From an uncultured Hyphomicrobiales bacterium (GTDB taxonomy: Bacteria > Pseudomonadota > Alphaproteobacteria > Rhizobiales > Aestuariivirgaceae), in assembly GCA_903930095.1 (NCBI GenBank), contig CAIYXE010000389.1, positions 1-14,304 on the forward strand: 14,304 nucleotides of DNA, given 5' to 3'. This document shows, piece by piece, positions 1-14,304 of this stretch (position 1 is its first letter; each line of letters begins with the position of its first letter). The notes under the pieces are model-generated. The model saw only the letters and a program-made list of their open reading frames with translations. It was not told the origin of the DNA and did no database searches. A program made the position numbers and the translations under genes.

Positions 1-713
1 ACTATTTCAGCGTCAACCGCGAGGGCACCGAAGCGCTTGCCGCGGCCGCGCTGCCAGCACGGGTGGGCCGCTTCGTCCACATCTCCTCGCTTGCCGCGCG
101 CGAACCGCAGCTGTCGCATTATGCCGCAAGCAAGAACGCGGCGGAGCAGGTGGTGGCGCGGCAGGATCTGGCACTCAACGCCGTGATCATCCGGCCGCCC
201 GCCGTCTACGGGCCGGGAGACCGCGGCACGCTGCCGCTGATCCGCGAACTGACGCGGCCGCTTGCCGCCATTCCCGGGCGGCGCGCGGCGCGCTTCTCCC
301 TGATCCATGCCCGCGATCTCGCCCGTATCATTGCTGCGGCAATCGAGGGTACAGAGCAGGGCATTCACGAGGTGAGCGATGGGAGGCCGGGCGGCTATGG
401 CTGGGAGGATCTGATCGGCACCGCCAGCGCGTTCCGCGGCGCGCCCGTCCGTGCGCTCTTCCTGCCCCGCGCCGTTCCGGCGGCGGTGGCGGCGGGTGCT
501 GAAGCGCTGGCGCGGATCACCGGAAGGCCCGGCCTCGTGAACCGCGGCAAGGTCGCGGAGCTTTATCACCCTGACTGGGTGTGCCGGCAGGGCACGCTCG
601 GCCTTTCTGATCCGACCGGCTTCGAACAGGGCTTCGCGGAGACCGTGGCATGGTACCGCGAGGCCGGATGGTTGCCTCGCGGCGCTGCTGCCGATAGAAA
701 CCCGGCACACTGA
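1..713 (+). CDS. cerR: Extended SDR / NAD-dependent epimerase-like reductase, probable ceramide reductase (CerR type), 5' end missing
   Basis: The reading frame is open to the left edge of the window (first full codon at 3), so the N-terminal Rossmann GxxGxxG motif lies outside. Visible are an NxxGT-like stretch (VNREGTEAL, around 15-41), a strand with the catalytic Ser (FVHISSLAA), the catalytic pair YAASK about 40 residues into the visible part, and a 'RPPAVYGPGDRG' segment. All are typical of extended short-chain dehydrogenases. The family includes sugar epimerases and the bacterial ceramide reductase, which reduces the 3-keto group of the sphingoid base. The CerR assignment comes mainly from context: 5 to 11 bp separate it from an ACP gene followed directly by serine palmitoyltransferase, the order I recall for Caulobacter. 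In Caulobacter the reductase is reported to act in the periplasm. The missing N-terminus prevents a check for an export signal. Membership of the SDR family is near certain; the substrate is inferred. Confidence 0.75.
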   Translation, partial: YFSVNREGTEALAAAALPARVGRFVHISSLAAREPQLSHYAASKNAAEQVVARQDLALNAVIIRPPAVYGPGDRGTLPLIRELTRPLAAIPGRRAARFSLIHARDLARIIAAAIEGTEQGIHEVSDGRPGGYGWEDLIGTASAFRGAPVRALFLPRAVPAAVAAGAEALARITGRPGLVNRGKVAELYHPDWVCRQGTLGLSDPTGFEQGFAETVAWYREAGWLPRGAAADRNPAH

Positions 714-967: not shown

Positions 968-2179
968 ATGGACCTGCTGATGAAGCTCAAAGGCATCGCC
1001 GAGCGCCACACGCGGATGAGGTCGCTGGGGGTCGATGCCATCGGTGTGACCAACGAGAGGATGCTCTCGCCCACCCGCGCCATCATCGACGGCCGCGAGA
1101 CGATCCTCGCCGGCACCAACAACTACATGGGCATCACCTTCGATGCCGAGTGCATCGCGGCGGGCAAGAAGGCGCTGGATGAATTCGGCACCGGCACGAC
1201 CGGCTCGCGCATCGCCAACGGGTCCTTCGCGCTCCATGACGACCTCGAGCGCGAATTCGCGCGCTTCCTCGACCGCCGGCACTGCATCGTCTTCACCACG
1301 GGCTACCAGGCGACTCTCGGCATGATGTCGGGCCTGGCGGGCCCGCGCGACACGATCTATCTCGACGCCGACTCGCACAGCTCGATCTATGACGGCTGCA
1401 CGCTTTCAGGCGCAAAGCTGGTGCGCTTCCGCCATAATGACGCGGCCGACCTCGACAAGCGCCTGTCACGCGGGGAGCAGGACGAGGGCGGCGGCAAGCT
1501 CGTCGTGCTGGAAGGCATCTACTCCATGCTGGGCGACAGGGCGCCGCTCGCCGATTTCATCGAGGTGAAGAAGAAGCACGGCTTCCAGCTGCTCGTCGAC
1601 GAGGCGCATTCCTTCGGCGTGCTGGGCCCCAATGGCCGCGGCCTTGCAGATGAAGCGGGCCTCGAGAAGGAGGTGGACTTCATCGTCGGCACCTTCTCGA
1701 AGAGTGTTGGCGCCATCGGCGGCTTCGGGGCGGGGGACCATCCCTACTTCGAGTATCTCCGCTATGCCATGCGGCCCTATATGTTCACGGCGTCCTCTTC
1801 CCCGGCTTCGGTTGCAACCTCGCTCGCCGCGATCCGCAAGCTGGCCGCCGAGCCCCAGCGCCGGACCCGGCTGATGGAGAATTCGGCCCGCCTGTTCCAC
1901 GGTTTCAAGGCGCTGGGCCTCGACCTCGGCTGCGACGTGGTGAGCCCCGTCGTCGCGGTGCGCTGCCCGGACGAGCCATCCACCATCGCGATGTGGGATG
2001 CGTTGCTGAAGGCGGGCGTCTACGTCAACATCGCGCTGCCACCGGGCACGCCCAACAAGCTGTGCCTGCTGCGCTGCTCGGTCTCGGCCGCCCACAGCGA
2101 GGCGGAGATTGACCGGGTCATCGAACTCTTCGGCGCGGTCGTCGCCCATGGTCATGGCAGGAAGGTCGCGAACGGCTAG
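968..2179 (+). CDS. spt: Serine palmitoyltransferase (PLP-dependent alpha-oxoamine synthase)
   Basis: 403 residues, the usual size for soluble bacterial Spt and its relatives KBL and BioF. It condenses L-serine with a fatty acyl thioester to give 3-ketosphinganine, the first committed step of sphingolipid synthesis. Fold-type I PLP landmarks are all present: the cofactor-stacking His in 'DADSHSSIYDG' (H137), 'LVDEAHSFGVLGPNGRG' with D211 and H214, and the Schiff-base lysine K245 in 'GTFSKSVGAIGG'. The glycine-rich 'GTGTTGSRIANGS' is also typical of the family. AAGGA at 956-960 stands 7 nt before the ATG. The adjacent ACP and SDR reductase favour Spt over 2-amino-3-ketobutyrate ligase (normally next to threonine dehydrogenase) or BioF (biotin operon). 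It converges on a lipid-kinase operon 219 bp downstream. Confidence 0.88.
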   Translation: MDLLMKLKGIAERHTRMRSLGVDAIGVTNERMLSPTRAIIDGRETILAGTNNYMGITFDAECIAAGKKALDEFGTGTTGSRIANGSFALHDDLEREFARFLDRRHCIVFTTGYQATLGMMSGLAGPRDTIYLDADSHSSIYDGCTLSGAKLVRFRHNDAADLDKRLSRGEQDEGGGKLVVLEGIYSMLGDRAPLADFIEVKKKHGFQLLVDEAHSFGVLGPNGRGLADEAGLEKEVDFIVGTFSKSVGAIGGFGAGDHPYFEYLRYAMRPYMFTASSSPASVATSLAAIRKLAAEPQRRTRLMENSARLFHGFKALGLDLGCDVVSPVVAVRCPDEPSTIAMWDALLKAGVYVNIALPPGTPNKLCLLRCSVSAAHSEAEIDRVIELFGAVVAHGHGRKVANG

Positions 2180-2398: not shown

Positions 2399-3379
2399 CT
2401 AGGCCCGCACGAAGGTGAGCAGCGGACCCGTCTCCAGCCGCAGTGGTTCATCCGTGGGCGGAGGAAAGAACTCGCCGTCGATCACGAACATCACCTTGGA
2501 TGTCACTTCCAGTTGATCCGCGCAGAAACTCACCGACCCGGGTGGAGGCGTGCGGCCCTCGCCGCCATACATGACGGGCAGCATCCAGCGGGCCACCGAG
2601 GGGACGGGATAGGGAAACACCGTGGTGCGGATCGGCGCCGTCTTGCCGCCCCAGAACGGCCTGGTGTTGAGCACCAGCTTGTCGAGCGTTGTCGACATCT
2701 GGAGAAGCTGCGGGCCTTCCGTATAGATCCGGCCCTTTGCCCGGACCGAGATCGGATAGGGCCGGTCGAAGCGGCTCGTGTCGTCGGGATCGGGTGCTGA
2801 GAACAGGTATTTGCGCAGCGCCGTGGCCAGCGTTCCGGCCACCGCCCATTGCCCTTTCACACCCTTGTCGTTGAAGGCTTGCTGGCAATAGCGCGTGGCC
2901 ACCGCCACAGCACCCGTGCCCACGAACATGCCATGGCGCACCTGCCCGTCACCGGGGTTGGCGCAGCGGATGGTGTGGCGCGTCAGAACGTCATGCGCCG
3001 CGAGGCTTCTGAGGAAGGCTGCCTGGCGCTCGATCACATGGCTTCCAAAGCCGATGTCGTTGGCGCTCAGATTGGTTGTGCCATGCGGGAGAAGCGTGAA
3101 CCGGGGAGGGGAGGGAAAAATGCCGTGCTCGGCGACAAGGGTGAGGATTTCCTGGATCGTGCCGTCGCCTGAGCTGATGAAGAGATCGCTCACCCCCTCT
3201 GCCGCCATCTCCCGCATGAAGCCTTCCAGCTGTCCGAAGCGCTCCAGGATGCGGATGAGGATTCCCGTGCTGCCGGCCAGGCTTGCCGCCAGCGCCAGCC
3301 CCTTGCCGCTGCCCTTGCCGGCGCTCGGGTTGACGATCAGCCCGGCGCGTCTCGCGGGCTGCCCGCTGACCTGCACCAT
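2399..3379 (-). CDS. Lipid kinase of the diacylglycerol/sphingosine kinase (DAGKc) family, candidate ceramide kinase
   Basis: 326 residues. DAGKc landmarks in order: nucleotide-loop 'LIVNPSAGKGSG' (residues 14-25), the catalytic-loop signature SGDGT (70-74; GGDGT in most relatives) and 'LPHGTTNLSAND' (97-108; usually PxGTxND). A C-terminal 'VIDGEFF' carries the conserved Asp-Gly-Glu. The family phosphorylates lipid alcohols such as diacylglycerol, sphingosine or ceramide at the cytoplasmic face of the inner membrane. Caulobacter has a ceramide kinase (CpgB) of this family encoded close to spt, and here the gene faces spt across 219 bp. Ceramide kinase is therefore the best guess, with diacylglycerol or undecaprenol kinase as alternatives. 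It starts 3 bp after the lptG stop, so it is cotranscribed and probably coupled to lptG. The family call is secure; the substrate is inferred. Confidence 0.8.
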   Translation of the reverse strand: MVQVSGQPARRAGLIVNPSAGKGSGKGLALAASLAGSTGILIRILERFGQLEGFMREMAAEGVSDLFISSGDGTIQEILTLVAEHGIFPSPPRFTLLPHGTTNLSANDIGFGSHVIERQAAFLRSLAAHDVLTRHTIRCANPGDGQVRHGMFVGTGAVAVATRYCQQAFNDKGVKGQWAVAGTLATALRKYLFSAPDPDDTSRFDRPYPISVRAKGRIYTEGPQLLQMSTTLDKLVLNTRPFWGGKTAPIRTTVFPYPVPSVARWMLPVMYGGEGRTPPPGSVSFCADQLEVTSKVMFVIDGEFFPPPTDEPLRLETGPLLTFVRA

Positions 3380-3382
3380 GGT

Positions 3383-4459
3383 TCAGACCGTCTCCGCCCT
3401 GAGGGTGAGCACCGCAGCCAGCGAGCCGAAGACCGCGAGCGGGAACCACGCCGCAAGCCATGGCGTTACGAAACCAAGCTCGCCCATGGTGAGGGAAATG
3501 CCGTCGACGATGAAGAACAGGAAGCCCATGCCCACGCCCGCCGCGAACAGCACGCCAAGCCCGCCGCCGCGGCGGAACCTGGTGGCCAGCGGAAGGCACA
3601 GCGCCATCATGAGGAGGCCGGAAAAGAACAGCGACACGCGCTTGTGCGCCCATGTCTCGTAAACCCAGACCGGCCTGATCCCGAAGCCCTGGTTCTCGAT
3701 GAAATAGGAGAGCTCGGCGAGCGACATGTCTTCCGGGGCGCCGGAGCGCGCACCGGCCTGGGCTGGCTTCATGGCCCCCGAATAGACCAGCGTCTCCAGC
3801 CGCGACGGCTGGAGATTGTCGCGGTAGTAGACGAGCACGCCGGAGAGCGTCCAGCGGCCGCCCGAAAGCTCCGCCTGGGCGGCGTAGATCTGTTCGCGCA
3901 GTAGGCCGTTGCCGTCACGCCGGAAGATGATCACGTCCTCGAGCCTGGTCGAGTCGGCATTGGCGGAGCCGGCGCGCAGGATGTCAGGGCCGGCGCGCAT
4001 CCAGATCGGGTCCTTCTCGCCCACCTTCAGCTTGTCGGCCCCGTAATCGCCGATTCCCCAGTCGCGCAGTTGCGGCGTCGTGGCGGGAATGGCGGAGTCG
4101 GACAGCACGAACTGCAGTCCCCCGGCCACGAAGGCCAGCGGCAACAGCATGAGCAGCAGGCGGATCGGCGACAGGCCCGCCGCCCAGATTGCCACCATCT
4201 CGTTGCGATAGCTGAGCTCGGTCAGCGACAGCAGCATGGCGAGCAGCATGCTGATGCCCATGTAGTTCGAGACGACGGACGGCGCGCGGTGCAGCATGTA
4301 GTCGATCAGGATCCAGGGCTCTCCCGGGCGCAGCGCCTGCACGTCCTTGGCGTTGGCCAGAAGGTCGAGCGAGAGCACGAAGAAGGAGATGCCGAGAAGG
4401 ATCGCGACATAGCGGGTCGCGACCATGCGGATGAGCATCCAGCCGATGATCTTCATCAT
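3383..4459 (-). CDS. lptG: LptG-family permease subunit (YjgP/YjgQ)
   Basis: 358 residues if begun at the ATG at 4459-4457, which overlaps the lptF TGA as ATGA. The frame stays open farther upstream inside lptF, but that extension is Arg/Ala/Pro-rich and not LptG-like. Layout: one N-terminal membrane helix (about 12-35), two more (about 65-82 and 97-118, with the connecting 'RNEMVAIWAAGLSPIRLL'), a periplasmic beta-jellyroll of roughly 160 residues, and three C-terminal helices (about 280-350). LptF and LptG with the LptB ATPase drive lipopolysaccharide out of the inner membrane. The reader should note that neighbours are sphingolipid-type genes, not lptD-surA-pdxA-ksgA, so this may be a paralogue for another lipid. 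Family identity is strong; cargo is open. Confidence 0.87.
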   Translation of the reverse strand: MMKIIGWMLIRMVATRYVAILLGISFFVLSLDLLANAKDVQALRPGEPWILIDYMLHRAPSVVSNYMGISMLLAMLLSLTELSYRNEMVAIWAAGLSPIRLLLMLLPLAFVAGGLQFVLSDSAIPATTPQLRDWGIGDYGADKLKVGEKDPIWMRAGPDILRAGSANADSTRLEDVIIFRRDGNGLLREQIYAAQAELSGGRWTLSGVLVYYRDNLQPSRLETLVYSGAMKPAQAGARSGAPEDMSLAELSYFIENQGFGIRPVWVYETWAHKRVSLFFSGLLMMALCLPLATRFRRGGGLGVLFAAGVGMGFLFFIVDGISLTMGELGFVTPWLAAWFPLAVFGSLAAVLTLRAETV

Positions 4460-5673
4460 TGTGCCGCACTCCAGCCTGAACGGCGCAGCAGCGCGTGGCG
4501 CAGGCCTGACACGGCATCCCCCGCGCGGTCGATGAAGCTGCTCACCACATCGTTGCGCAGGGTGAAACAGGTTGCGGCGTAGCGCCATCCGGCAAAGAGC
4601 GTCAGCAGCAGCCAGGGCAGCCACATGCTGACATAGGGCGACACGATGCCGTTGTTGGAGGCGGAGGCGCCCTTGTGGATGATCTCATTGTAGAGAACGA
4701 TCAGCACCAGCGCGACACCGGTGCGGAAACCCCGCGAGCTGCGCCGGGAGCCCACCGCGAAGGGAATGGCCAGGAACGGCAGGATCAGGATGCTGGCCGC
4801 GGTGACGAGCCGTTCGTGCAGCTCTGAGGATACCTCCTCGCGGCTGGCCTTGGGGGGTGGCTTGTCGAGTGCTGCGAACAGTTCCGGAAGTGTGAGCTCG
4901 CGCTCGTCCTCGCCGCGCGGGCGGAAGATGTCCTTGGAGAGGCGGCCGAGCGGCGTATCGGCGATTGCGAACTCCGTCGTCTCGCCCACGGCTGGCGTGG
5001 GCGAGGTGACCGCCGGCCGCTCCTTGAAGGATAAGCGGTGCCCGTCGGCGAGTTGCAGCGTGGGCCGCTGGCCTGCGGCATTTTCAAGCAAGGCGCCGCG
5101 CGCCGCCGTCACCGTCTCGGAGCCTTCCGCACCCTTGTCCTGGAAGATGAAGGCGTGCTCGAAGGCGTTCTTTCCGCGGTCCAGCCGGTCGATGATGAAG
5201 GTGCGTTCGCCCGCCTGCATGAAGACGCCTTCCTCCGCCAGATAGAACACGTCGATATTCTGCACGTCGAACACCACGGAACGGTAGGCATAGCGGGCAT
5301 GCGGCTGCACCCAGCCTATGATGAGCAGTGAGAGCGCCGCGAGCAGGGCGCCCAGCACGATCACCGGGCGTGCCATCCGGTTGAGGCCGATGCCGGAGGC
5401 CATGAAGGCGTCCGTCTCGGAATTGGCGGACATCTTGCCGAAACCCAGCAGGAGCCCGAGGAACAGTGCTGCGGGAAGGGCGGTGCCGAGATAGTGCGGC
5501 ACCAGGTAGGCCAGCATCTCGAACACGGCGGTGAAGGAATTCTTCTTGCCCAGCGTCGCGTCCAGGAGGCGGACCATGCGGTCGGCCAGCAGCATGAGAA
5601 GGCCGATCACCAGCGCGCCCGCCAGCGGCAGCGAGACCTGCTTCAGCACATGCCTGTCGATGATGGGGAGCAA
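4456..5673 (-). CDS. lptF: LptF-family permease subunit (YjgP/YjgQ)
   Basis: 405 residues with the LptF pattern: an N-terminal helix after 'IIDRHVLKQ' (about 14-32), two helices around the family's conserved 'GKMSANSETDAFMASGI' segment, a periplasmic jellyroll from about 125 to 290, then three helices from about 295 to 370. The start is TTG at 5673: an in-frame stop lies only two codons upstream (5680-5682) and GAAGG stands about 10 nt before it. The last 30 or so residues form an Arg-rich cytoplasmic tail longer than I expect in the family. LptF partners LptG to form the transmembrane part of the exporter; LptB, LptC and LptA homologues are not in the window. The stop overlaps the lptG start (ATGA). 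The gene follows the phosphoesterase after 61 bp, probably in one operon. Confidence 0.87.
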   Translation of the reverse strand: MLPIIDRHVLKQVSLPLAGALVIGLLMLLADRMVRLLDATLGKKNSFTAVFEMLAYLVPHYLGTALPAALFLGLLLGFGKMSANSETDAFMASGIGLNRMARPVIVLGALLAALSLLIIGWVQPHARYAYRSVVFDVQNIDVFYLAEEGVFMQAGERTFIIDRLDRGKNAFEHAFIFQDKGAEGSETVTAARGALLENAAGQRPTLQLADGHRLSFKERPAVTSPTPAVGETTEFAIADTPLGRLSKDIFRPRGEDERELTLPELFAALDKPPPKASREEVSSELHERLVTAASILILPFLAIPFAVGSRRSSRGFRTGVALVLIVLYNEIIHKGASASNNGIVSPYVSMWLPWLLLTLFAGWRYAATCFTLRNDVVSSFIDRAGDAVSGLRHALLRRSGWSAAQ

Positions 5674-5734: not shown

Positions 5735-6661
5735 TCAGGAAGAAAGGACGAATTCGGTCGAGTGGCCCACCTGCCGCGTGACCGGGTCGAAGCAGCGCAC
5801 GGTGACCTCCGTCAGCCATTTTCCGCCCTGGCGCTGGATCCTGTACAGGTTCCAGGCCGCCACCGGGTGGTGCGCGCTGCGGATCAGCGAGGCGGAGGGA
5901 ACGCCCACCACATGGACCGCGCCGAAGCGGGAGTTGAGGCTGTTCAGCATGTGCTCATGGTTGTGGCCGTGAAGGACGAGTTCCGCCCCCTGTGCCTCCA
6001 GCACCGCCCGCAGTGCCGTTGCATCAAGAAGCGCCTTGCGGGGCTTGGCGAGGCCGGGAAGCGGCGGATGATGGATCATCACCACCCGGGCATAGCCGCG
6101 TTCGCGCAGGTCGGAGAGAAGGAAGGCCAGCGATTCGATCTGCGTGGGGCCGAGCAGCCCCGCTGCCCGGTGCAGCGGTTGCGGCACCGCGGTCGAGACG
6201 CCGATCAGGGCCACGTTGCGGCGCAGCCGGACATAGGGAAAGGGTGCCGCGATCTGCGGGCCCGACTGGGCCAGCCCCACCTTCATGTCGCCCTGCATGT
6301 AAGGGGCAAGGTGCATGAGCCCATGCTTCCAGTCCATGCGCACATAGGTGTCGTGGTTGCCGGGCACGAAGCTGATCCAGTCCGGTTTGCCGAAGGCGTC
6401 GAGCCAGGCGCCGGCGGCTGTGAACTCGTCATGGGCGGCGACGTTCACGATGTCGCCCGTCAGCGCCACATGGTCGGGGGCTGCCGCCACAATGTCCGCC
6501 GCGATTGCCGCAGCCACCGCCGGCGAATGCGCCCGGTGCCGGTTGAGGCGCCAGTTGATTGCCCCGATCGTCCGCTTCAATGCGAAGTGGCGGCGGGCGG
6601 AGCCCGCGGGCAGGGGGCCGAGGTGCAGGTCGGAGAGATGGGCGAGACTGAATGCCGACAC
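5735..6661 (-). CDS. Calcineurin-like metallophosphoesterase
   Basis: 308 residues if begun at GTG 6661. All five metal-binding blocks are visible: 'HLSDLHLG' (D11, H13), GD (69-70, in 'ALTGDIVN'), GNHD (101-104), HH (197-198, in 'MIHHPPLPG') and 'HGHNHEH' (231-237). This is the binuclear-metal phosphoesterase fold shared by CpdA/Icc cAMP phosphodiesterases and by LpxH, the lipid A pathway enzyme. The sequence alone does not fix the substrate. No membrane segment is seen. The frame stays open up to a GTG at 6727, but that extension would be encoded by the palindromic repeat at 6699-6748, so the shorter start is preferred. Its position at the head of an lptF-lptG-lipid kinase operon suggests a phospholipid or lipid-phosphate substrate, which is inference. 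In rhizobia I recall such phosphoesterases next to DAGK-family kinases. Confidence 0.85.
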   Translation of the reverse strand: MSAFSLAHLSDLHLGPLPAGSARRHFALKRTIGAINWRLNRHRAHSPAVAAAIAADIVAAAPDHVALTGDIVNVAAHDEFTAAGAWLDAFGKPDWISFVPGNHDTYVRMDWKHGLMHLAPYMQGDMKVGLAQSGPQIAAPFPYVRLRRNVALIGVSTAVPQPLHRAAGLLGPTQIESLAFLLSDLRERGYARVVMIHHPPLPGLAKPRKALLDATALRAVLEAQGAELVLHGHNHEHMLNSLNSRFGAVHVVGVPSASLIRSAHHPVAAWNLYRIQRQGGKWLTEVTVRCFDPVTRQVGHSTEFVLSS

Positions 6662-6698
6662 GTGTTCCGCTGGCCGCTTTTGAGGGTTCCGAGCGTTT

Positions 6699-6748
6699 AG
6701 AGCATGATCCGCGAAAGTGGAAACCACTTTTGCGGCAGGATCATGCGC
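6699..6748 (-). repeat. 50-bp rhizobial-type palindromic repeat, copy 2 (inverted)
   Basis: Read on the - strand it matches copy 1 (2287-2336) at 45 of 50 positions. The inner stem AAAGTGG / CCACTTT (6714-6720 with 6724-6730, loop AAA) extends through a G.T pair, and the outer stem GCATGATCC / GGATCATGC (6702-6710 with 6738-6746) is perfect over 9 bp. Most differences from copy 1 are transitions. Confidence 0.8.
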
Positions 6749-6900: not shown

Positions 6901-7911
6901 TCAGGAATACTTCCGCAGATAATCCTCGCACAGCGGCAGCGTGCCGTGGGTGTAGCCCGCACCCAGGGATTTGGGGAATTCCGCCTCGATGTGGGACGCG
7001 ATCCACGCGACGAGCAGGATGCGGCGGAGCATGATGAAGGTGGGGATTTCGACTTCGTCTTCCCTGGGCAGCACCAGCTGCTTGCGATAGCCCTTGACCC
7101 AGCTTTCGATCAGCCCCGGCACCTGCGGCTCATGCTCGTAGAAGGAGACGGGTGTGGCCGCGTCATACATGTACCAGCCGAAGCCGCAGTCGTCGAAGTC
7201 GATGGCTTTCACCGACTTGCCGTCGATCAGCAGGTTCGCCAGACGCAAGTCGCAGTGGATGAGGCCGAAACGCTCGGCACCCTTGCCATAGGCCTTGAGC
7301 CTCCTGCCGATGAGGTTGGCGGTGCGCTGGAAGAGCCGTTCCTTCTCGGCGTCCATGCCCACGCCATCGCGCCAGCGGCCCCAATGAGGGTTGTCATCAC
7401 CCAGCGCCGTATCGAAATCCCAGGTGAGGCGGGTGAACCAGGAGGGGCGCTGCCACTGACGCGCTTGGATATGCATGCGCGCGGTAATCTCGCCCAGCAC
7501 CTCGAAGGGTTCGGACAGGTCCTCGCCGATGCCGGGTTCGGCGCCCGTCTCCCAGTCGAACAGCACCACGTTGCGCGGGCGCGGCAGGCGTGGGTGGGAG
7601 ACCTGCTGGATGATCTCGCCATTCTTTCCCTTCACGGGGTTGGGCGTGGTGACGACGCCCGTTTGCCGCAGGTCCACGGCCCAGGCCAGTTCGGAGGCAA
7701 TCGCCTGCCGCGAATGATAGCCGTCGCGATGCACGCGCAAGGCCCATCGCCTGCCATCGGGTGCATTCACCTTGTAGGTGGCGTTCTCGGAGAGATTCAG
7801 CATGTTCGCCATGGTGCCCGCAGGCAGGTCGTAATGCGACAATGCCTTGTTGGCGAGGTCGAGCAGGATCGGCAACTGGTCGTCATGTGCGAGGGAATCG
7901 AAATCCGTCAT
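6901..7911 (-). CDS. APH/choline-kinase-fold phosphotransferase (SrkA/RdoA, homoserine-kinase-II-like)
   Basis: 336 residues from ATG 7911; the frame stays open to a TTG at 7971, but the ATG gives the family-like N-terminus. Kinase landmarks: nucleotide-contact 'LSENATYKV' (40-48), 'WALRVHRDGYHS' where Arg59 replaces the usual catalytic-pocket Lys, the catalytic loop 'HCDLRLANLL' (D221, N226) and the metal-binding 'AIDFDDCGFG' (D238). The substitution and the wording around it resemble COG2334 (RdoA/SrkA) proteins, which are protein or small-molecule kinases. The protein is soluble and cytoplasmic. It lies 75 bp after the large GNAT gene on the same strand and could be cotranscribed with it. 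Because this fold also contains choline and ethanolamine kinases, a lipid head-group role is imaginable near sphingolipid genes, but nothing in the sequence shows it. Confidence 0.8.
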   Translation of the reverse strand: MTDFDSLAHDDQLPILLDLANKALSHYDLPAGTMANMLNLSENATYKVNAPDGRRWALRVHRDGYHSRQAIASELAWAVDLRQTGVVTTPNPVKGKNGEIIQQVSHPRLPRPRNVVLFDWETGAEPGIGEDLSEPFEVLGEITARMHIQARQWQRPSWFTRLTWDFDTALGDDNPHWGRWRDGVGMDAEKERLFQRTANLIGRRLKAYGKGAERFGLIHCDLRLANLLIDGKSVKAIDFDDCGFGWYMYDAATPVSFYEHEPQVPGLIESWVKGYRKQLVLPREDEVEIPTFIMLRRILLVAWIASHIEAEFPKSLGAGYTHGTLPLCEDYLRKYS

Positions 7912-7986
7912 GGCCACTCTGTCAGGCTTTGCGTGCGCCGGTTCCTGCCAGAACGCGCTTGATCTCCGCAAGCCCTCGCGCTCCGT

Positions 7987-9144
7987 CTATGGCCTGTGGC
8001 CGCCGCTGATCGCGCGTTCATAGATGCGGTAGGTCTTGTAGGCCCGGCCGCCGAAAGTCTCGATCATGCGGCGCATGCGCTTGTTGTCCTCGAGGATCCA
8101 GGACAACTCGCCCCGCATGGTGCCACGCGAGACGTGGTAGCTGCGCACCCGCGCGAGCGCCGCCATGCCCAGCACGCCGCCCATCGCCGTGCCGTGAAAG
8201 GCCTTTCTCACCCCCATGAGCGGCATGCGGACAGAGCGCGGCGGGCGGCCCATAAGATTCCATGCGAGCTTTGCCCAGCCAAAGGGCAGAAGCCTGCCGT
8301 CGAGCCCGCGGATCCAGTCGTTGATGTTGGGAAGCGACACCGCCATGGCGGCGGGCTCGCCCTTGTATTCCGCGATGGCGATGTAGTCCCCGGTTACCAG
8401 CAGCTTCAGATTGTTGCCGAGTGCGGTCATCTCCTCCTGGGTCCAGGGCACGAAACCCCAGTTCTCCGACCAGGCGTCATTGGCGATCGCGACGATGATC
8501 TCGAGTTCGCGCATCAGCCGCTTCTTGTCGAGCGGGCGCACCTCGATGTCCGGGTTGGCCAGTGCCCTGTCATAGGCGGCCTTCAGGGTGCGCGGGATCT
8601 CGCCCGGATCCTCGAAGTCATAGGCGATCACGTCCTTGGCCTTGGTGAAGCCCAGCTCCTCGAGGCGGGTGGCGTAGTAGGGCAGGGCATGGCCCATCAT
8701 CATCGAGGGCGGCGTGTCGAAGCCCTCGATCAGCAGGCCGATCTCGTCATTGATGGAGAAGTTGAACGGGCCCTGCATGCGGCTCATGCCCCGGGCCTTC
8801 AGCCAGGAGGAGGCAGCCTCGAACAGGGCGGCGAACACGGCAGGATCGTCCTCTGCCTCGAGAAAGCCGAACTGGCCGGTGCCATCGGCAAAGCGCTCCG
8901 CGCGCAGCCGGCAGGACTGCGCCGAGATGCGCCCCACCAGCCTCTCTCCCCGGAACGCCAGGAAAAGGGCCACCTCGGCATGGCGGAAATAGGGGTTCTT
9001 GCCGGGGTCGAGGTGTTCCAGCCGCTCCAGGTAAAGCGGTGCTACCCAGTTCGGATCCTGACGGTACAGGCCGAAGGGCAGGTCGAGGAAGGCCTTGAGG
9101 TCCGCCTTGCCGCCGACGGGCCGCACGCTGATGGGCTGGGTCAT
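7987..9144 (-). CDS. Large GNAT-fold acyltransferase-like protein, candidate bacterial ceramide synthase (N-acyltransferase)
   Basis: 385 residues from ATG 9144. The frame is open to 9219, but the 25 extra residues lack family character and would overlap the divergent Nudix start. Recognisable family segments: 'FLDLPFGLYRQDPNWVAP' near the N-terminus, 'NPYFRHAEVALFLAF', 'RLVGRISAQ', 'MQGPFNFSINDEIGLLIEGF' in pieces, and a C-terminal 'RGELSWILEDNKRMRRMIE'. The last segment is the pattern of duplicated GNAT domains in YghO-like proteins. No transmembrane helix is evident. The Caulobacter ceramide synthase is a GNAT-type protein unrelated to the eukaryotic enzyme and adds the second acyl chain to the sphingoid amine in the cytoplasm. 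This gene sits 5 kb from spt, so it is the obvious local candidate. That is inference: YghO-like GNAT proteins also occur without spt. Confidence 0.6.
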   Translation of the reverse strand: MTQPISVRPVGGKADLKAFLDLPFGLYRQDPNWVAPLYLERLEHLDPGKNPYFRHAEVALFLAFRGERLVGRISAQSCRLRAERFADGTGQFGFLEAEDDPAVFAALFEAASSWLKARGMSRMQGPFNFSINDEIGLLIEGFDTPPSMMMGHALPYYATRLEELGFTKAKDVIAYDFEDPGEIPRTLKAAYDRALANPDIEVRPLDKKRLMRELEIIVAIANDAWSENWGFVPWTQEEMTALGNNLKLLVTGDYIAIAEYKGEPAAMAVSLPNINDWIRGLDGRLLPFGWAKLAWNLMGRPPRSVRMPLMGVRKAFHGTAMGGVLGMAALARVRSYHVSRGTMRGELSWILEDNKRMRRMIETFGGRAYKTYRIYERAISGGHRP

Positions 9145-9217
9145 GGTCAAGGGATTAGCCTCGCTTCCGCGTGAACTCAAGCTTGGCGCAGCGCTGGGCA
9201 AGCGGTAACGAGGCGGC
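9145..9217. promoter_or_regulatory. Divergent promoter region between the large GNAT gene and the Nudix gene
   Basis: A 73-bp gap separates two divergently transcribed genes, so promoters for both must lie here or in the neighbouring coding ends. I cannot identify convincing -35/-10 boxes. GAGGCGG at 9210-9216 may serve as the weak ribosome site of the Nudix gene. Confidence 0.4.
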
Positions 9218-9697
9218 ATGAACGAGAGACTGAAGCGCCTGTTCTACCGCGTGGCGAAGCCCGTGCTGCACCCTGTCTACCGGCAGCTGCGCGGCATGAC
9301 GCTGGGTACCCGCACGCTGGTGCTGAAGGACGCGGACGCGCAGGTGATGCTGGTCCGCCACGGCTATGCCGCGGGCTGGATGCTGCCCGGCGGCGGCGTC
9401 GAGCGCGGCGAGGCGCTGGCCGAGGCAGCCGTCCGCGAGGTCCGGGAGGAGACCGGCATCGTGGCGGAGGAGGAGCCGCTGCTGCATGGCATGTTCCTCA
9501 ATGACCGCCAGTTCCGCGGCGATCATGTGGCCTGCTTCGTGCTGCGGCGGTTCAGCGAAAGGCCGGTGAGTGCAGGCTTCGAGATCGCCGAGGCGCGGTT
9601 CTTCCCGTCTGCCGCGCTGCCGGAGGGAACAACCAGCGGCACCAGGCGGCGCCTTGCGGAGGTGCTCGAAGGCCGTCCACCTTCTCGCGCGTGGTGA
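9218..9697 (+). CDS. Nudix hydrolase
   Basis: 159 residues with a complete Nudix box GX5EX7REUXEEXGU at residues 59-81 (G59, E65, R73-E74, E77-E78, G80). It is preceded by '[13 protein letters not shown]', so metal-dependent hydrolysis of a nucleoside diphosphate linked to some group X is expected. The N-terminal 30 residues are basic and amphipathic ([19 protein letters not shown]) and could lie along a membrane, though there is no true transmembrane helix. The box does not reveal the substrate. The gene is divergent from the large GNAT gene, 73 bp away, and is followed by 222 bp without a clear gene. Family call is secure; function is general only. Confidence 0.9.
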
Positions 9698-9919: not shown

Positions 9920-10471
9920 ATGCGCGGTTCCATTGCCTGCGAAGACACAACACACCAGGACCATGACGCCGTCGAGCATCTGCTCGACCTGAGCTTCGGC
10001 TCCAACCGCCACGGCAAGACATCCTACCGGCTGCGTGAGGGCAGCACCCCTGTTCTGGGCCTGTCGCTGGTGGTGCGCGATCCGGGCGTCAGGCTGTCGG
10101 GCACCATCAGCTTCTGGCCGCTCGCCATCGGCGCGGGGGCAACGCCAGCACTTCTCCTCGGGCCGCTCGCCGTGCATCCGGACCGCCAGGGCCTGGGCAT
10201 CGGCCTTGCGCTGATGCGCGAAGGCCTGGCGCGTGCCGCCGCACAGGGCCATGCGCTGGTGCTGCTGGTGGGCGATGAGCCCTATTACGCGAAGCTTGGT
10301 TTCCGCAAGATTCCGGAGGGGCTGATCAGCCTGCCGGGGCCGGTGGACCCCGGCCGATTCCTCTATCTCGATCTGAAGCCGGGAGCGCTGGAAGGCGCCT
10401 CGGGCATGGCCTCAGCGGCCCTCGCGGTACCACATGGCGCTGAAGGCGAGGAGCAGCACGCCCAGGCTTAG
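9920..10471 (+). CDS. GNAT-family N-acetyltransferase (YhbS-like)
   Basis: 183 residues. The acetyl-CoA binding signature is clear: 'LLGPLAVHPDRQGLGIGLAL' at about residues 76-95 contains the Q/RxxGxG/A loop (RQGLGIG). It is followed by 'GHALVLLVGDEPYYAKLGF', the YY/GF element typical of YhbS-like acetyltransferases. The acceptor substrate is not predictable. The ribosome site is weak. The last 20 codons overlap the end of the convergent membrane-protein gene by 60 bp. The tail they encode (GMASAALAVPHGAEG...) has no family character, which suggests that the stop codon was lost and the protein lengthened into its neighbour. Confidence 0.85.
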   Translation: MRGSIACEDTTHQDHDAVEHLLDLSFGSNRHGKTSYRLREGSTPVLGLSLVVRDPGVRLSGTISFWPLAIGAGATPALLLGPLAVHPDRQGLGIGLALMREGLARAAAQGHALVLLVGDEPYYAKLGFRKIPEGLISLPGPVDPGRFLYLDLKPGALEGASGMASAALAVPHGAEGEEQHAQA

Positions 10472-12472
10472 CAGCGTCGCGAAGAGCGGCGTGTCCGAGA
10501 CCGCAAGCACCCGGTGCGCGTCGTTGGCGCGCAGACCGATCCAGCCGCTGCCCGCAGCCTGGCGGCCCTGGTCCACCTTCACGAGCTGCGGCAAGCCGTC
10601 TTCGAGCCAGTTGACGCTGCCGCCCGTTGCGGTGGCGGCGGGGGCAAGCACCGCCGCCGTGGCAACGAGGCTCGACATCTCGCGCGCGTCAGCACTTCCC
10701 GCGGCCGCGACCGATACGAGCTTGCCGTCGGAGAGCCGGTGAAGGCCTGCCTCCGTCACCCGGAGAGAGCCCTGGAAGCGGCCGGGCGCCACCTCGTTGA
10801 GCGTGATCGTTTCGGTCTTGCCCGAAGGCAGCGTCACCGTCACGGGCTCGACCGCATCCGCCATGGTGCGGCGCTCGATGACGAGGTTGCCGGCGCGCTG
10901 GTTACCTTCGAGGGCTTCCTCCTCGAGGTCGGGTTCCTTCATCAGCCAGTGCGCCATGCGGCGCAGCAGTTCGGTCTGCGGACCGCCGCCCTCGAAGCCG
11001 CGCGACCACAGCCAGCCCTGGTCAGAGAGGAGTTGCGCCACGCGCCCCTCGCCCTGGCGCGCCAGCACCAGAAGCGGCTTGCCGTCGAGGCCGGACATCA
11101 CCGTTTCGCCCGTGCTGGTGGTCGTCTCGACGAGGCGGAACCAGCGGCCCCAGCTTGGGCTGTCGCCGCCTGAACCCGGAAGTCCGCGCGTCACCGGGTG
11201 CTTCTTTCCCTGCGCGGTGAGTTCCGGCTTGAAGGGGCCTTCCAGCACCTCGCCCGTGGGCGCTGCCGCGATGATGTCGGAGAGCGGCGTGTAGTAGAGG
11301 CCGTCCTCGTCCGCGAGGTCGGGGCCCGAGGCAATCAGCACCGCGCCGCCATCGGCCACATAGCGGGCGATGTTGGCCATGTAGGCCGCGGGCAGCACCG
11401 TCTGCCGCCGGTAGCGGTCGAAGATCACGAGGTCGAATTCGTCGAGCTTCTCGATGAAGAGTTCGCGCGTCGGGAAGGCGATGAGGGCAAGTTCCCTGGT
11501 CGGCGTTCCGTCCTGCTTCTCCGGTGGCCTGAGGATGGTGAAGTGGACGAGGTCCACCGAGGCATCCGCTTTGAGCAGGTTGCGCCAGGAGCGCTCGCCG
11601 GGGTGCGGCTCGCCCGAGACGAGCAGCACGCGCAGCCGGTCGCGCACGCCCTCGATCACGGTGACGGCGCGGTTGTTCTGGGTCGAGATCTCGCCCTCCA
11701 GCGGCGGGGCGGTGATCTCCACGATGTTCTGGCCGCCGTGGCCGATGGCGACGGGGATGTCGAAGGTCTGGCCCGGCGGCACGGTGAAGCTCTCGGGCGC
11801 GCCGCCGCCGACGGCGATGGACACGCTCACCGGCTGGCCGGGGCCGTTTGCTTCCTCGATGCGGAAGCTCACCGTCTGTTCCTGGCCCACCATGCCGAAG
11901 CGCGGGGCCTTCTCGATCACCACCTTGCGGTCCTTCTCGCTCCGCGAGCCGGTGATGATGGCGTGCAGCGGGCCGCCGGGGTTGGCCTTCGCCGCGTCCT
12001 GCGGCGCATCGTGCACCTGCCCGTCGGTGATCATGATGGCGCCGGCAAAGCGCTCGGGCGGAATGTCGGCCAGCGCGCGGTTCAGCGCCTCGAAGGCGCG
12101 CGTGCCGTCGTCCTCCGCGCTGATGCCGGACTTCACCTCGACGGTGCGCAGTTCAGTGTTGGGCAGCCGGGCGACCGCCGCCTTCAGCGCCGCCTCCGCC
12201 TCGGCCGTGCGGGGGCTGCGGCCGGCACTTTCCTGGCTGAGCGAGCGGTCGATCACCGCAACCGCGATGTCGGTCAACGGCTCGCGCTCCTCGTTGCGCA
12301 CCGTCGGGTTGGCGAGGGCGGCAAGCAGGATGGCCAGCGACAGGGCGCGCAGCAGGGCGCCGCGGGTGCGCGCCAGGGCAAGCGCTGCAACCAGCACGAG
12401 GCCGAGCACGCCCATGACGGCGATGACCGCCCAGGGCAGCACGGGGTCGAAGCCGATGCTCCAGGAACTCAT
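10412..12472 (-). CDS. Membrane protein with VWA-like and glutamine-amidotransferase-like domains
   Basis: 686 residues from ATG 12472, which overlaps the stop of the gene before it as ATGA. Two N-terminal helices (about 12-34 and 38-55) are followed by a von Willebrand A-like domain. This has the MIDAS-type 'DRSLS' (D75, S77, S79) and a later 'IMITDGQVHD'. A GATase1-like domain comes next ('RVLLVSGEPHPGERSW', 'DLVIFDRYR', 'VADGGAVLIASGPDL'), without the Cys nucleophile typical of active amidotransferases at the expected turn. One C-terminal helix (LFATLLSLGVLLLAFSAMW) ends the protein. Such proteins accompany MoxR ATPases, DUF58 and DUF4159 proteins in an alphaproteobacterial operon of unclear function, perhaps envelope assembly or stress tolerance by analogy with BatA/B. 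Only the DUF4159 partner is visible here. Domain identification is good; the cellular role is unknown. Confidence 0.82.
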   Translation of the reverse strand: MSSWSIGFDPVLPWAVIAVMGVLGLVLVAALALARTRGALLRALSLAILLAALANPTVRNEEREPLTDIAVAVIDRSLSQESAGRSPRTAEAEAALKAAVARLPNTELRTVEVKSGISAEDDGTRAFEALNRALADIPPERFAGAIMITDGQVHDAPQDAAKANPGGPLHAIITGSRSEKDRKVVIEKAPRFGMVGQEQTVSFRIEEANGPGQPVSVSIAVGGGAPESFTVPPGQTFDIPVAIGHGGQNIVEITAPPLEGEISTQNNRAVTVIEGVRDRLRVLLVSGEPHPGERSWRNLLKADASVDLVHFTILRPPEKQDGTPTRELALIAFPTRELFIEKLDEFDLVIFDRYRRQTVLPAAYMANIARYVADGGAVLIASGPDLADEDGLYYTPLSDIIAAAPTGEVLEGPFKPELTAQGKKHPVTRGLPGSGGDSPSWGRWFRLVETTTSTGETVMSGLDGKPLLVLARQGEGRVAQLLSDQGWLWSRGFEGGGPQTELLRRMAHWLMKEPDLEEEALEGNQRAGNLVIERRTMADAVEPVTVTLPSGKTETITLNEVAPGRFQGSLRVTEAGLHRLSDGKLVSVAAAGSADAREMSSLVATAAVLAPAATATGGSVNWLEDGLPQLVKVDQGRQAAGSGWIGLRANDAHRVLAVSDTPLFATLLSLGVLLLAFSAMWYREGR

Positions 12473-14304
12473 TGGCCGAGCCTCTCGAGCAGGGCCGGCA
12501 CATGGACCTGGTCGGCCTTGTAGTTGCCGGTCAGCGCATACATCACGATGTTGACGCCGGTGCGGAAGGCGAATTCCCGCTGCCGGTCGGCGCCCGGGAC
12601 CGAGGCGAAGATCGGCTGGCCGTTCTCGTCCATGGCCCAGGCGGCGGCATAGTCGTTGGATCCGATGATGATGCCGCTGACGCCGTCCGTGTTGCCCAAC
12701 GATGCTCCCTCGCTGTCGGTGCGCTCCACCCACAGCTTGCCGCCGGCGTAGCGGCCGGGGAAGCGGTCCATCAGGTAGAAGCTCTTGGTCAGCACATGGG
12801 TGTCCGGCACGGGCTCCAGCGGCGGGATGTCGAGCTTCGCCAGAATGCGGCGCAGCGCATCGGAGGCGGCACTGGCGCCGCCCGTCAGCGCGTCGGCGCC
12901 CGCGCCATCCTCACGCAGGTCGAAGAAGATGGTGCCGCCGCCCTTCATGAATGCGTCGATGCGGGCGAGTGCTGCATCGGAAGGAACGGTCGCGTCGGGC
13001 TTCACCGGCCAGTAGAGCAGCGGAAAGAACACGATGTCGTCGCGCTCGATGTTGATGCCCGCGGGCTCCCCCGTGACCACCGAGGTGCGCTCGCCCAGGA
13101 TCGCGCCGAGCCCCTTGAGGCCCTGCTCGCTCACCTCATCCAGTGCCTTATCCCCCGTGATGACATAGGCGAGCCTGGTTTCGAGCGCGTTGCGCATCGC
13201 ATAGTCGTCCGTGGCCTGGGCATGGGCCGGGGGCTGCCAGGCCAGGACGAGCAAGAGGCCAACCGCCGCCGCGGCGGCGCGGCGCTGGCGCAGGCGGTTG
13301 AGGCCGCCGCCGAGGACCAGTGCTGCAAGGCAATCGGCGAGGAACAGGATCATGGCCAGCGCGAAGGCATAGGGTGCCAGGGCGAGTGCCGGAAGGGGGG
13401 CAAGCGGGCGCAGCGTGACGGTGGAGGCAAGGCCCGAGATCGGCGTCAGCGCATCGCCGCTGCGGGTGATGTTGAGGGCGCGCTCCTGCAGGCCCCGGCG
13501 GTAGAGGCCGGCGGGGGTTGCGGCACTCACCACCGCCTTGTCGATCGCCGCGGCTGCAATGGGCTGGACGTCGGGCGCAGGGTCAGCGAGCTCGCCGAAG
13601 CCGTCGAGCGAGCGGAACGGCACGAAGGCCTGCGCCCCGGTCTGGGCCTGTGCCGGTGCGGCACCGCCGCCGGCTGAGGGGGCAAGGTCGAGCACGCGGC
13701 GCAGCATCTCGACGAAGAGGCCAGAGACAGGAAGGTTCGACCAGTCGGCATTGGCGGTGACGTGGAACAGCACGATCAATCCCTTGCCCGTCTTTTCCGC
13801 CGTCACCAGCGGGGTTCCATCCGCGAGCGTTGCCCAGACCTTGGCCGGAAGCTCGGAATCGGGCTCAGCCAGCACCTGCCGCGTGACCTTGACCACCGGA
13901 TCGGGGGTGAGCCCCGCGAAGGGGCTGGTCTCGGGGAAGGCCTGCAGCGCCTGCGGCGTTTCCCAGCTCAGCGCACTGCCCAGCGAGCGGCCACCCTCGC
14001 GCAGCGTGACGGGAACCAGCGCGTCCTGGGCGCCCGCAAGGCGGGGCCCGGCGAAGCGCAGCAGCACGCCGCCATTTTCGACCCAACCCGCCACCATCTC
14101 CTGCTGTTCAGGGGGCAGCACGCCGATGTCGGCCAGCACGAGCATGGAGAGGCCCTGGTCCAGCAGCGCCTTGAGCGCCGCGCTGTCGGCGGGCTCCGCG
14201 ATCTCGCCATATGGCTCGAGCGCGCGCGAGGCGAAATAGAGCGGCGAGAGCAGCGGCTGGGCGGTTTCGGAAGATGTGCCCGACATCAGCCCCACGGTCT
14301 TGCG
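12469..14304 (-). CDS. DUF4159 domain membrane protein (BatA-like N-terminus expected outside the window), partial
   Basis: The frame is open through the right edge (codons at 14304-14296 are in frame before the first possible internal start), so the N-terminus is missing and 611 residues are visible. First comes a GATase-like or Rossmann-like portion ('LSMLVLADIGVLPPEQQEM', 'WVENGGVLLRFAGPRL'). About 170-300 residues in is a second mixed region. Two hydrophobic helices then follow (LAPYAFALAMILFLADCLAA; AAAAVGLLLVLAWQ ending in a signal-peptide-like AHAQA). The last roughly 235 residues are the DUF4159 domain ('TRLAYVITGD', 'FFPLLYWPV', 'GGGTIFFDLRED', 'NIVMYALTGNYK'). Full-length relatives are about 900 residues, as far as I recall. 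It is coupled by ATGA to the VWA/GATase-like protein; a DUF58 and a MoxR gene are expected beyond 14304. Confidence 0.85.
   Translation of the reverse strand, partial: RKTVGLMSGTSSETAQPLLSPLYFASRALEPYGEIAEPADSAALKALLDQGLSMLVLADIGVLPPEQQEMVAGWVENGGVLLRFAGPRLAGAQDALVPVTLREGGRSLGSALSWETPQALQAFPETSPFAGLTPDPVVKVTRQVLAEPDSELPAKVWATLADGTPLVTAEKTGKGLIVLFHVTANADWSNLPVSGLFVEMLRRVLDLAPSAGGGAAPAQAQTGAQAFVPFRSLDGFGELADPAPDVQPIAAAAIDKAVVSAATPAGLYRRGLQERALNITRSGDALTPISGLASTVTLRPLAPLPALALAPYAFALAMILFLADCLAALVLGGGLNRLRQRRAAAAAVGLLLVLAWQPPAHAQATDDYAMRNALETRLAYVITGDKALDEVSEQGLKGLGAILGERTSVVTGEPAGINIERDDIVFFPLLYWPVKPDATVPSDAALARIDAFMKGGGTIFFDLREDGAGADALTGGASAASDALRRILAKLDIPPLEPVPDTHVLTKSFYLMDRFPGRYAGGKLWVERTDSEGASLGNTDGVSGIIIGSNDYAAAWAMDENGQPIFASVPGADRQREFAFRTGVNIVMYALTGNYKADQVHVPALLERLGQ

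Follow-up and report, generated by a model that had tools for sequence, protein, structure and literature searches.

The window studied here, a stretch of 14,304 nucleotides, is one entire contig (CAIYXE010000389.1, C389 in our numbering) of the assembly GCA_903930095.1 (G000; 820 contigs, 89.8% complete) from an uncultured Hyphomicrobiales bacterium of the family Aestuariivirgaceae. It carries an adjacent pair of genes for LptF- and LptG-like permease subunits next to spt, the gene for serine palmitoyltransferase (Spt). There is strong evidence that this pair represents a sphingolipid type of LptF/LptG, and to judge from its sequence context it probably exports phosphorylated ceramide. Both proteins match PF03739 over nearly their full length (191 bits for LptG and 214 for LptF; cut-off 27.9) and hence belong to this family. 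A metallophosphoesterase (MPE), LptF, LptG and a DAGK-type kinase are encoded head to tail on the minus strand and face spt and a cerR-like gene (Table 1). The original prediction for this DNA had described the pair as flanked by a phosphoesterase and a lipid kinase and as facing spt, and the open frames together with the Pfam and NCBIfam matches confirm this. It had also proposed a phosphorylated ceramide as cargo, which the kinase makes plausible. With the ATG at 4459 taken as its start, LptG has 358 amino acids and shares its first 4 bases with the end of LptF; a gap of 3 bases separates the LptG stop from the ATG of the kinase (3379).

Table 1. Genes of the window, with strand and supporting matches
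Feature	Position	Strand	Evidence
LptF, spt-linked (sphingolipid) type, permease subunit	4456..5673	-	PF03739 3.5e-63; type profile; tree
LptG, spt-linked (sphingolipid) type, permease subunit	3383..4459	-	PF03739 3.5e-56; type profile; tree
DAGK_cat lipid kinase, probable ceramide kinase like CC_1160	2399..3379	-	PF00781 2.8e-13; position and domain only
Calcineurin-like metallophosphoesterase (MPE), upstream of lptF	5735..6727	-	PF00149 3.8e-10
spt, serine palmitoyltransferase	968..2179	+	NF047599 575 bits, cut-off 500
cerR-like NAD-dependent epimerase/dehydratase, 5' end beyond window	3..713	+	PF01370 2.3e-11
Probable bacterial ceramide synthase (bCerS/CC_1154-like)	7987..9219	-	position and conservation only; profile matches in order/class spt-type loci
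APH-fold kinase between phosphoesterase and bCerS	6901..7971	-	PF01636 2.1e-22
DUF4159 protein	12469..14295	-	not linked to the LptF/LptG finding

The best named match to the window is an Aestuariivirga metagenome-assembled genome (88% identity). The gene order bCerS-MPE-LptF-LptG-DAGK / spt-cerR is kept in eight of ten relatives' loci (L011-L016, L018, L019); of the other two, the 3.7 kb contig of L010 stops short of the kinase and L017 has no cerR before its contig end. One genome of the same genus (G068) is identical across 17,001 bases to A. litoralis KCTC 52945, a member of the Aestuariivirgaceae (Hyphomicrobiales, Alphaproteobacteria).

LptF and LptG copies from the wider sample fall into two types, their locus context having been typed with profiles built in this analysis. 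Loci of the spt type hold all five of cerR, spt, kinase, MPE and bCerS or a subset of these. Most of them are matched by the kinase profile (exceptions L105, L153, L157) and by the phosphoesterase profile (exceptions L078, L079, L082, L083, L153, L155, L157, L159, L164), and in most the cerR-like epimerase matches beside spt. Loci of the lptD type have the order LptF-LptG-LptD (L077, L080, L081, L085, L086, L089, L112-L115 and others); the earlier statement that lptF and lptG normally lie by lptD is right for these copies. In a tree of 67 LptF rows, the spt side (39 rows) is split from the lptD side with a support of 100/100 and in 100% of 200 bootstrap trees, and a tree of 62 LptG rows gives the same values for the split between its spt side (35 rows) and the lptD side. 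The window LptF and LptG both group with the spt-linked copies, off the lptD-linked side, and the spt-adjacent copies thus form a clade of their own, the pattern for which a tree had originally been proposed as a check. Lone LptF rows (L004, L095, L108) were scored on the spt side in these trees, and rows whose fetched stretch holds no lptD and no sphingolipid gene (LptF L135, L146, L150; LptG L099, L135, L146) on the lptD side, while long branches and odd types (LptF L099, L102, L106, L116; LptG L101, L116) were omitted. A quick tree of all 71 LptF rows has an SH-aLRT support of 84 between the sides, with L102 and L106 on the spt side and L099 and L116 on the lptD side.

Profiles for the individual types agree with the trees: window LptF scores 544 bits with the spt-type profile and 93 with the next best of four, and window LptG 525 and 116, the window and many other scored rows being training rows as well. 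Copies are widely separated in this way, except for the diverged L099, L101, L102 and L116. With the NCBI equivalog models for the proteins of lipopolysaccharide (LPS) transport, window LptF (209 bits on TIGR04407, cut-off 230) and LptG (200.5 bits on TIGR04408, cut-off 240) both remain under the cut-off, while an lptD-type LptF of the same order (L081) reaches 266 bits. Some copies were left untyped (G113:C165, G078:C205, G036:C55:130664, G036:C79, G135:C2, G172:C28, G191:C40, G196:C150, G199:C50, G006:C31, the copies of G114, all four copies of G226 and, in G298, the second pair). Strongly diverged adjacent LptF/LptG-like genes occur besides a regular pair in three LpxC-negative genomes of the order (L101 in G037:C8, L102 in G079:C38, and G114:C484).

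Within its own genome, PF03739 has three matches: the window pair plus a single LptF gene on contig C783. The PF03739 search of this 89.8% complete assembly found no second adjacent LptF-LptG pair, and no lptD-type LptF or LptG copy was found in it. The lone LptF (L004:811-1986, plus strand) adjoins lptD (2830-5100, minus strand) and a gene of the Frag1/DRAM/Sfk1 family (1958-2821). A remnant LPS LptF was considered for it and rejected: it adjoins lptD, but the tree and the type profiles group it with spt-type LptF. The idea of a paralogous Lpt-like permease holds as far as the separate clade is concerned, but this permease does not stand alongside another one for LPS, as it is the only adjacent pair found in the genome. 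Originally, a sole pair was to count against a dedicated exporter; this presumed that such a pair must serve LPS, and it is not decisive because lipid A synthesis appears to be missing.

The LptC, LptA and LptB homologues that were to be sought near the pair were found in the same genome on contig C457, where they lie side by side ahead of rpoN, and not on C389; LptD is on C783. LptB (375 bits, cut-off 240) and LptC (57, cut-off 38) were identified with NCBIfam models, and LptA (48.5 bits, cut-off 20.4) and LptD (167, cut-off 22.4) with Pfam; LptA (42 of 71.7) and LptD fall under their NCBIfam cut-offs. A single LptC was found, the one beside lptA-lptB-rpoN. Across 60 genomes of the family, PF03739 matches number exactly two in 47, three in 10, four in one and one in two; these are counts of profile matches, the two of G173 being pieces of one gene and a third match in G198 lying below the cut-off. 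At least six of the 47 two-match genomes have the matches split over different contigs (G104, G179, G186, G193, G200, G202). In G104, only LptG lies by spt, and a divergent spt-type LptF on another contig is perhaps its partner. By the profiles, the 30 best family loci are all of the spt type, five of their source genomes (G022, G068, G163, G189, G203) having contributed training rows.

Evidence on lipid A concerns two enzymes, LpxC (five family genomes) and LpxB (60). LpxC was not found in the window's genome, nor in any of the five family genomes (this one included) among 150 of the order, 123 of which are positive. LpxB was found in none of the 60 family genomes, with a model that matches E. 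coli and Caulobacter. Spt is above the cut-off in 55 of these 60 and partial or not found in the other five. That LpxC was missed through the fragmentation of the window's assembly is disfavoured, since A. litoralis (G068, 100% complete) also has no LpxC or LpxB match. Lipid A synthesis thus appears to have been lost in Aestuariivirga and, as far as these two genes tell, the lineage is probably without LPS. In the order, Spt exceeds 500 bits in 19 of 27 LpxC-negative and 6 of 123 LpxC-positive genomes (Fisher p 5e-13, the genomes being related and not independent events); seven of the 27 were identified by elimination. Genomes with Spt matches of 458-476 bits (G019, G050, G065, G087, G089, G101, G121, G132) were scored as Spt-negative, and G089 is the only one of these eight included in the LptF/G search.

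Copy number follows lipid type in broad terms. The PF03739 search in the order covered 44 of the 150 genomes. All six sampled genomes with both LpxC and Spt have four to five matches and all 12 with LpxC but not Spt exactly two; those with Spt but not LpxC have two (10 of 18) or three to five (8 of 18), and of the eight with neither, five gave no match, two gave two matches and one gave five. A sample of 142 genomes of the class, mostly one per family, gives a similar picture. Four or more matches occur in 5 of 6 LpxC-positive Spt-positive genomes (two in the other) and in 1 of 111 that are LpxC-positive and Spt-negative (Fisher p 2e-7), this one having four; the rest of the latter have two (99), three (two), one (six) or none (three). 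With Spt but not LpxC, 8 of 11 have two, one has three and two have none; with neither, none were found in 6 of 14, two in six, one in one and three in one. Five order genomes (G051, G088 and G122 of f51, G066 of f21, G089 of f52) have no LpxC, no Spt over the cut-off (468 bits in G089) and no LptF/G match; outer membranes with neither LPS nor Lpt pump, or assembly gaps, are possible explanations.

Linkage and type follow the same division. Of the 25 Spt-positive genomes of the order, 22 have an LptF-LptG pair no more than about 10 kb from spt (the LptF of G078 is cut by a contig end). Both types were recovered from ten genomes, one pair lying by spt, bCerS, phosphoesterase or kinase and the other being lptD-type. 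Among 33 LpxC-positive Spt-negative genomes (12 from the order, 21 from the class; best-matching locus of each) no spt-type copy was found, 32 being clearly and one (G005) weakly lptD-type, and neither kinase nor phosphoesterase profile matches in five such loci of 13-16 kb (L112-L116). Spt-free relatives with the same neighbours had been named as grounds for abandoning a dedicated pair, and these observations favour keeping it. Within genus g35, G111 (100% complete, LpxC-negative by elimination) has the spt pair alone, while the other three sampled members (G034, G076, G142) have LpxC and both pairs.

Residue columns were aligned and numbered against E. coli LptF and LptG, to which the window proteins are 20.1% and 18.7% identical, respectively; at an identity near 20%, single columns may be misaligned. 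The glutamates LptF E84 and LptG E88, which we take to couple the permease to LptB, are present in 36/36 and 35/35 spt-type rows, the window included. Several cavity columns are shifted. LptG 41 is R/K in 3/35 spt-type and 22/24 lptD-linked rows and D/E in 30/35 of the former; LptG 40 is R/K in 6/35 (all K, the window included) and 22/24 (all R); LptG 320 is Y in 0/35 and 22/24, and LptG 37 is another such column. LptF 27 is W in 0/36 spt-type and 25/25 lptD-linked rows, LptF 66 is A in 30/36 and 0/25, and LptF 30 is R in 35/36 of the spt type and Q in 21/25 of the lptD-linked rows. Columns 27 and 30 do not in themselves mark LPS, as E. coli LptF has F27 and K30. According to the available text of PMC6744409 on the LPS-bound structure from S. 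flexneri, LptG K40 and K41 contact the 4'-phosphate and the inner core, respectively, and LptF L66 and LptG Y320 contact acyl chains. The E. coli LPS-phosphate contacts were rejected as a diagnostic set: neither type conserves LptG K34 or R136, LptF R33 is kept in both and LptG R133 is commoner in the spt type. Caulobacter lipid A has no phosphates, according to the part of PMC11324152 available.

In our estimate, with a probability of about three in four, the two genes encode the permease half of an ABC exporter of the LptB2FG type that carries a (phospho)sphingolipid and not LPS. Spt, bCerS and CerR would make ceramide, which the DAGK-type kinase would phosphorylate; we infer this cargo, the direction of transport and the shared bridge parts from the observed gene content, linkage, clades, copy number and residues. 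Since LpxC, LpxB and an lptD-type copy were not found and LptC, LptA, LptB and LptD are retained, the entire Lpt bridge of Aestuariivirga probably serves as a sphingolipid bridge, with phosphosphingolipid replacing LPS. In relatives that keep LPS, an lptD-type LptF-LptG pair is present in addition. A wider proposal, whose odds we judge barely better than even, is that several Hyphomicrobiales families, the Aestuariivirgaceae among them, have swapped LPS for phosphosphingolipid and run the Lpt bridge on sphingolipid alone, an exchange of LptF-LptG being the cargo switch with LptB, C, A and D kept, and that two pump heads share one bridge where both lipids are retained. The locus further points to an Lpt bridge that is not LPS-specific, its specificity being seated in LptF-LptG, and it adds to the Gram-negative lineages lacking lipid A genes. 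It makes the route of bacterial sphingolipids to the outer membrane testable in A. litoralis KCTC 52945 and in genus g35, with its one member lacking both LpxC and the lptD-type pair.

A number of observations weigh against this reading. The 3-5 matches in 8 of 18 LpxC-negative Spt-positive order genomes exceed the two expected, and 6 of 14 class genomes with neither LpxC nor Spt retain two LptF/G matches. Spt is present without an LpxC or LptF/G match in two genomes, G270 (one contig, 100% complete) and G274 (82%), and G282, with both LpxC and Spt, has only two matches, none of them on the spt contig within C18:1-50000. Owing to G270, G274, G282 and the extra copies in the 8 of 18, copy number was rejected as a strict rule for each genome. 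No pair lies by spt in G014, G022 and G104 (3 of 25 Spt-positive order genomes), and G014 carries one LptG resembling the lptD type. G062 (86% complete) has an spt-type pair and no Spt above 500 bits, and lptD-type copies occur where LpxC was not detected in G263 (95% complete), G290, G330 and G123 (each at most 90%), from which LpxC may have been missed through incompleteness. The residue evidence is mixed as well: LptF R33, an LPS-phosphate contact, is R in 35/36 spt-type and 19/25 lptD-linked rows, and LptG R133 is R in 12/35 spt-type and 1/26 other rows.

Of the alternatives, the one that survives best, though we think it unlikely, is that the pair exports another envelope glycolipid or serves lipid homeostasis, its linkage to spt reflecting co-regulation of outer-membrane lipids and not cargo. 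That the cargo is a prediction leaves room for it, as do the ceramide genes of G270, which has no LptF/G match, and the strongly diverged LptF/G-like genes of G037 and G079; the co-occurrence with Spt and the proximity of pair and spt in the order are hard to explain on this view. Decidedly improbable is an ordinary LPS pair that was merely relocated next to spt: it would fit the common Pfam family, the sole adjacent pair, the retained LptB, C, A and D and the conserved LptF R33, but it conflicts with the position of the pair in both trees, its scores under the equivalog cut-offs and the missing LpxC and LpxB. Least credible is an unusual LPS from a diverged lipid A pathway that escapes the LpxC and LpxB models, which the retained LptD and LptA and the search for just two enzymes (LpxC in five family genomes) might allow, but against which stand the 123 of 150 order genomes matched by the LpxC model, the Caulobacter and E. 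coli matches of the LpxB model and the coexistence of both pair types in LpxC-positive genomes.

Other genes of these loci vary. For the bCerS-like gene of the window no Pfam or NCBIfam family matched, and its designation as bCerS/CC_1154-like is our presumption. No match to the APH-type kinase was obtained in the relatives' loci L010-L019. In seven of nine related loci (L011-L015, L018, L019), as in the window, the lipid kinase directly follows LptG with no intervening CDP-alcohol transferase; such a gene occupies the gap in another genus of the family (L111:7935-9134), and the head group in window-type loci may be the simpler one. Nucleotidyl transferase genes are present in L111, L153 and L158, two of which (L111 and L158) also have CDP-alcohol transferase genes. 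An ABC-ATPase match directly adjoins bCerS in L087, L090-L092, L094, L096, L097, L103 and L111; that of L111, the one checked, also has a membrane domain and is a candidate flippase. In G270 (C1, L168), spt, a cerR-like epimerase-type gene, an AMP-binding enzyme and a phosphoesterase lie together, with no LpxC or LptF/G match in that genome. At the end of the window (10412-14295, minus strand), a large protein that DUF7408 matches weakly comes after the DUF4159 protein; they are unlinked to the pair.

The closest known system is that of Caulobacter crescentus. As stated in the available text of PMC11324152 (2024), CC_1168, CC_1156 and CC_1155 are a second LptC, LptF and LptG that probably carry phosphosphingolipids, transport itself not having been investigated there; CC_1156 has a co-fitness of 0.60 with CC_1159, which we count in favour of a sphingolipid cargo, and LptF2/LptG2 orthologues occur in Sphingomonas wittichii, Zymomonas mobilis, Sphingomonadales and other groups. 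The route of bacterial sphingolipids to the outer membrane was given as unknown in 2024 in the accessible parts of PMC11324152 and PMC11087976, the latter reporting no identified flippase or transporter. In the openly licensed PMC literature, judged partly by titles and the beginnings of abstracts, we found no later test of sphingolipid export by LptF2/LptG2, and nothing on the combination of LPS loss with sphingolipids in those parts of it that were accessible. The window pair resembles LptF2/LptG2 in being a second-type pair in a ceramide or ceramide-phosphoglycerate gene region (PMC11324152, in part), and gene order suggests that they belong to one clade. Whereas neither an lptD-type copy nor LpxC or LpxB was found in the window's genome, C. 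vibrioides matches LpxC, so that its pair comes in addition to LPS; and unlike Caulobacter, with its proposed LptC2 (CC_1168), the genome has one LptC. New in this work are the clade-wide evidence, the shifts in cavity residues and the observation that Aestuariivirga apparently has sphingolipid only and no LPS.

In LPS-free sphingomonads, sphingolipid substitutes for LPS in the outer membrane. With E. coli and Shigella LptB2FGC, the window pair shares the Pfam family, the coupling glutamates and the presence of LptB, C, A and D; it differs in the missing LpxC and LpxB and in the columns LptF 27, 30 and 66 and LptG 37, 40, 41 and 320, which are shifted with respect to alphaproteobacterial lptD-linked copies. 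An LPS-free sphingomonad named in the available text of PMC11324152 is S. koreensis. The bacteria described here belong to another order than these sphingomonads, and trees and copy number connect their transporter type with the loss of LPS.

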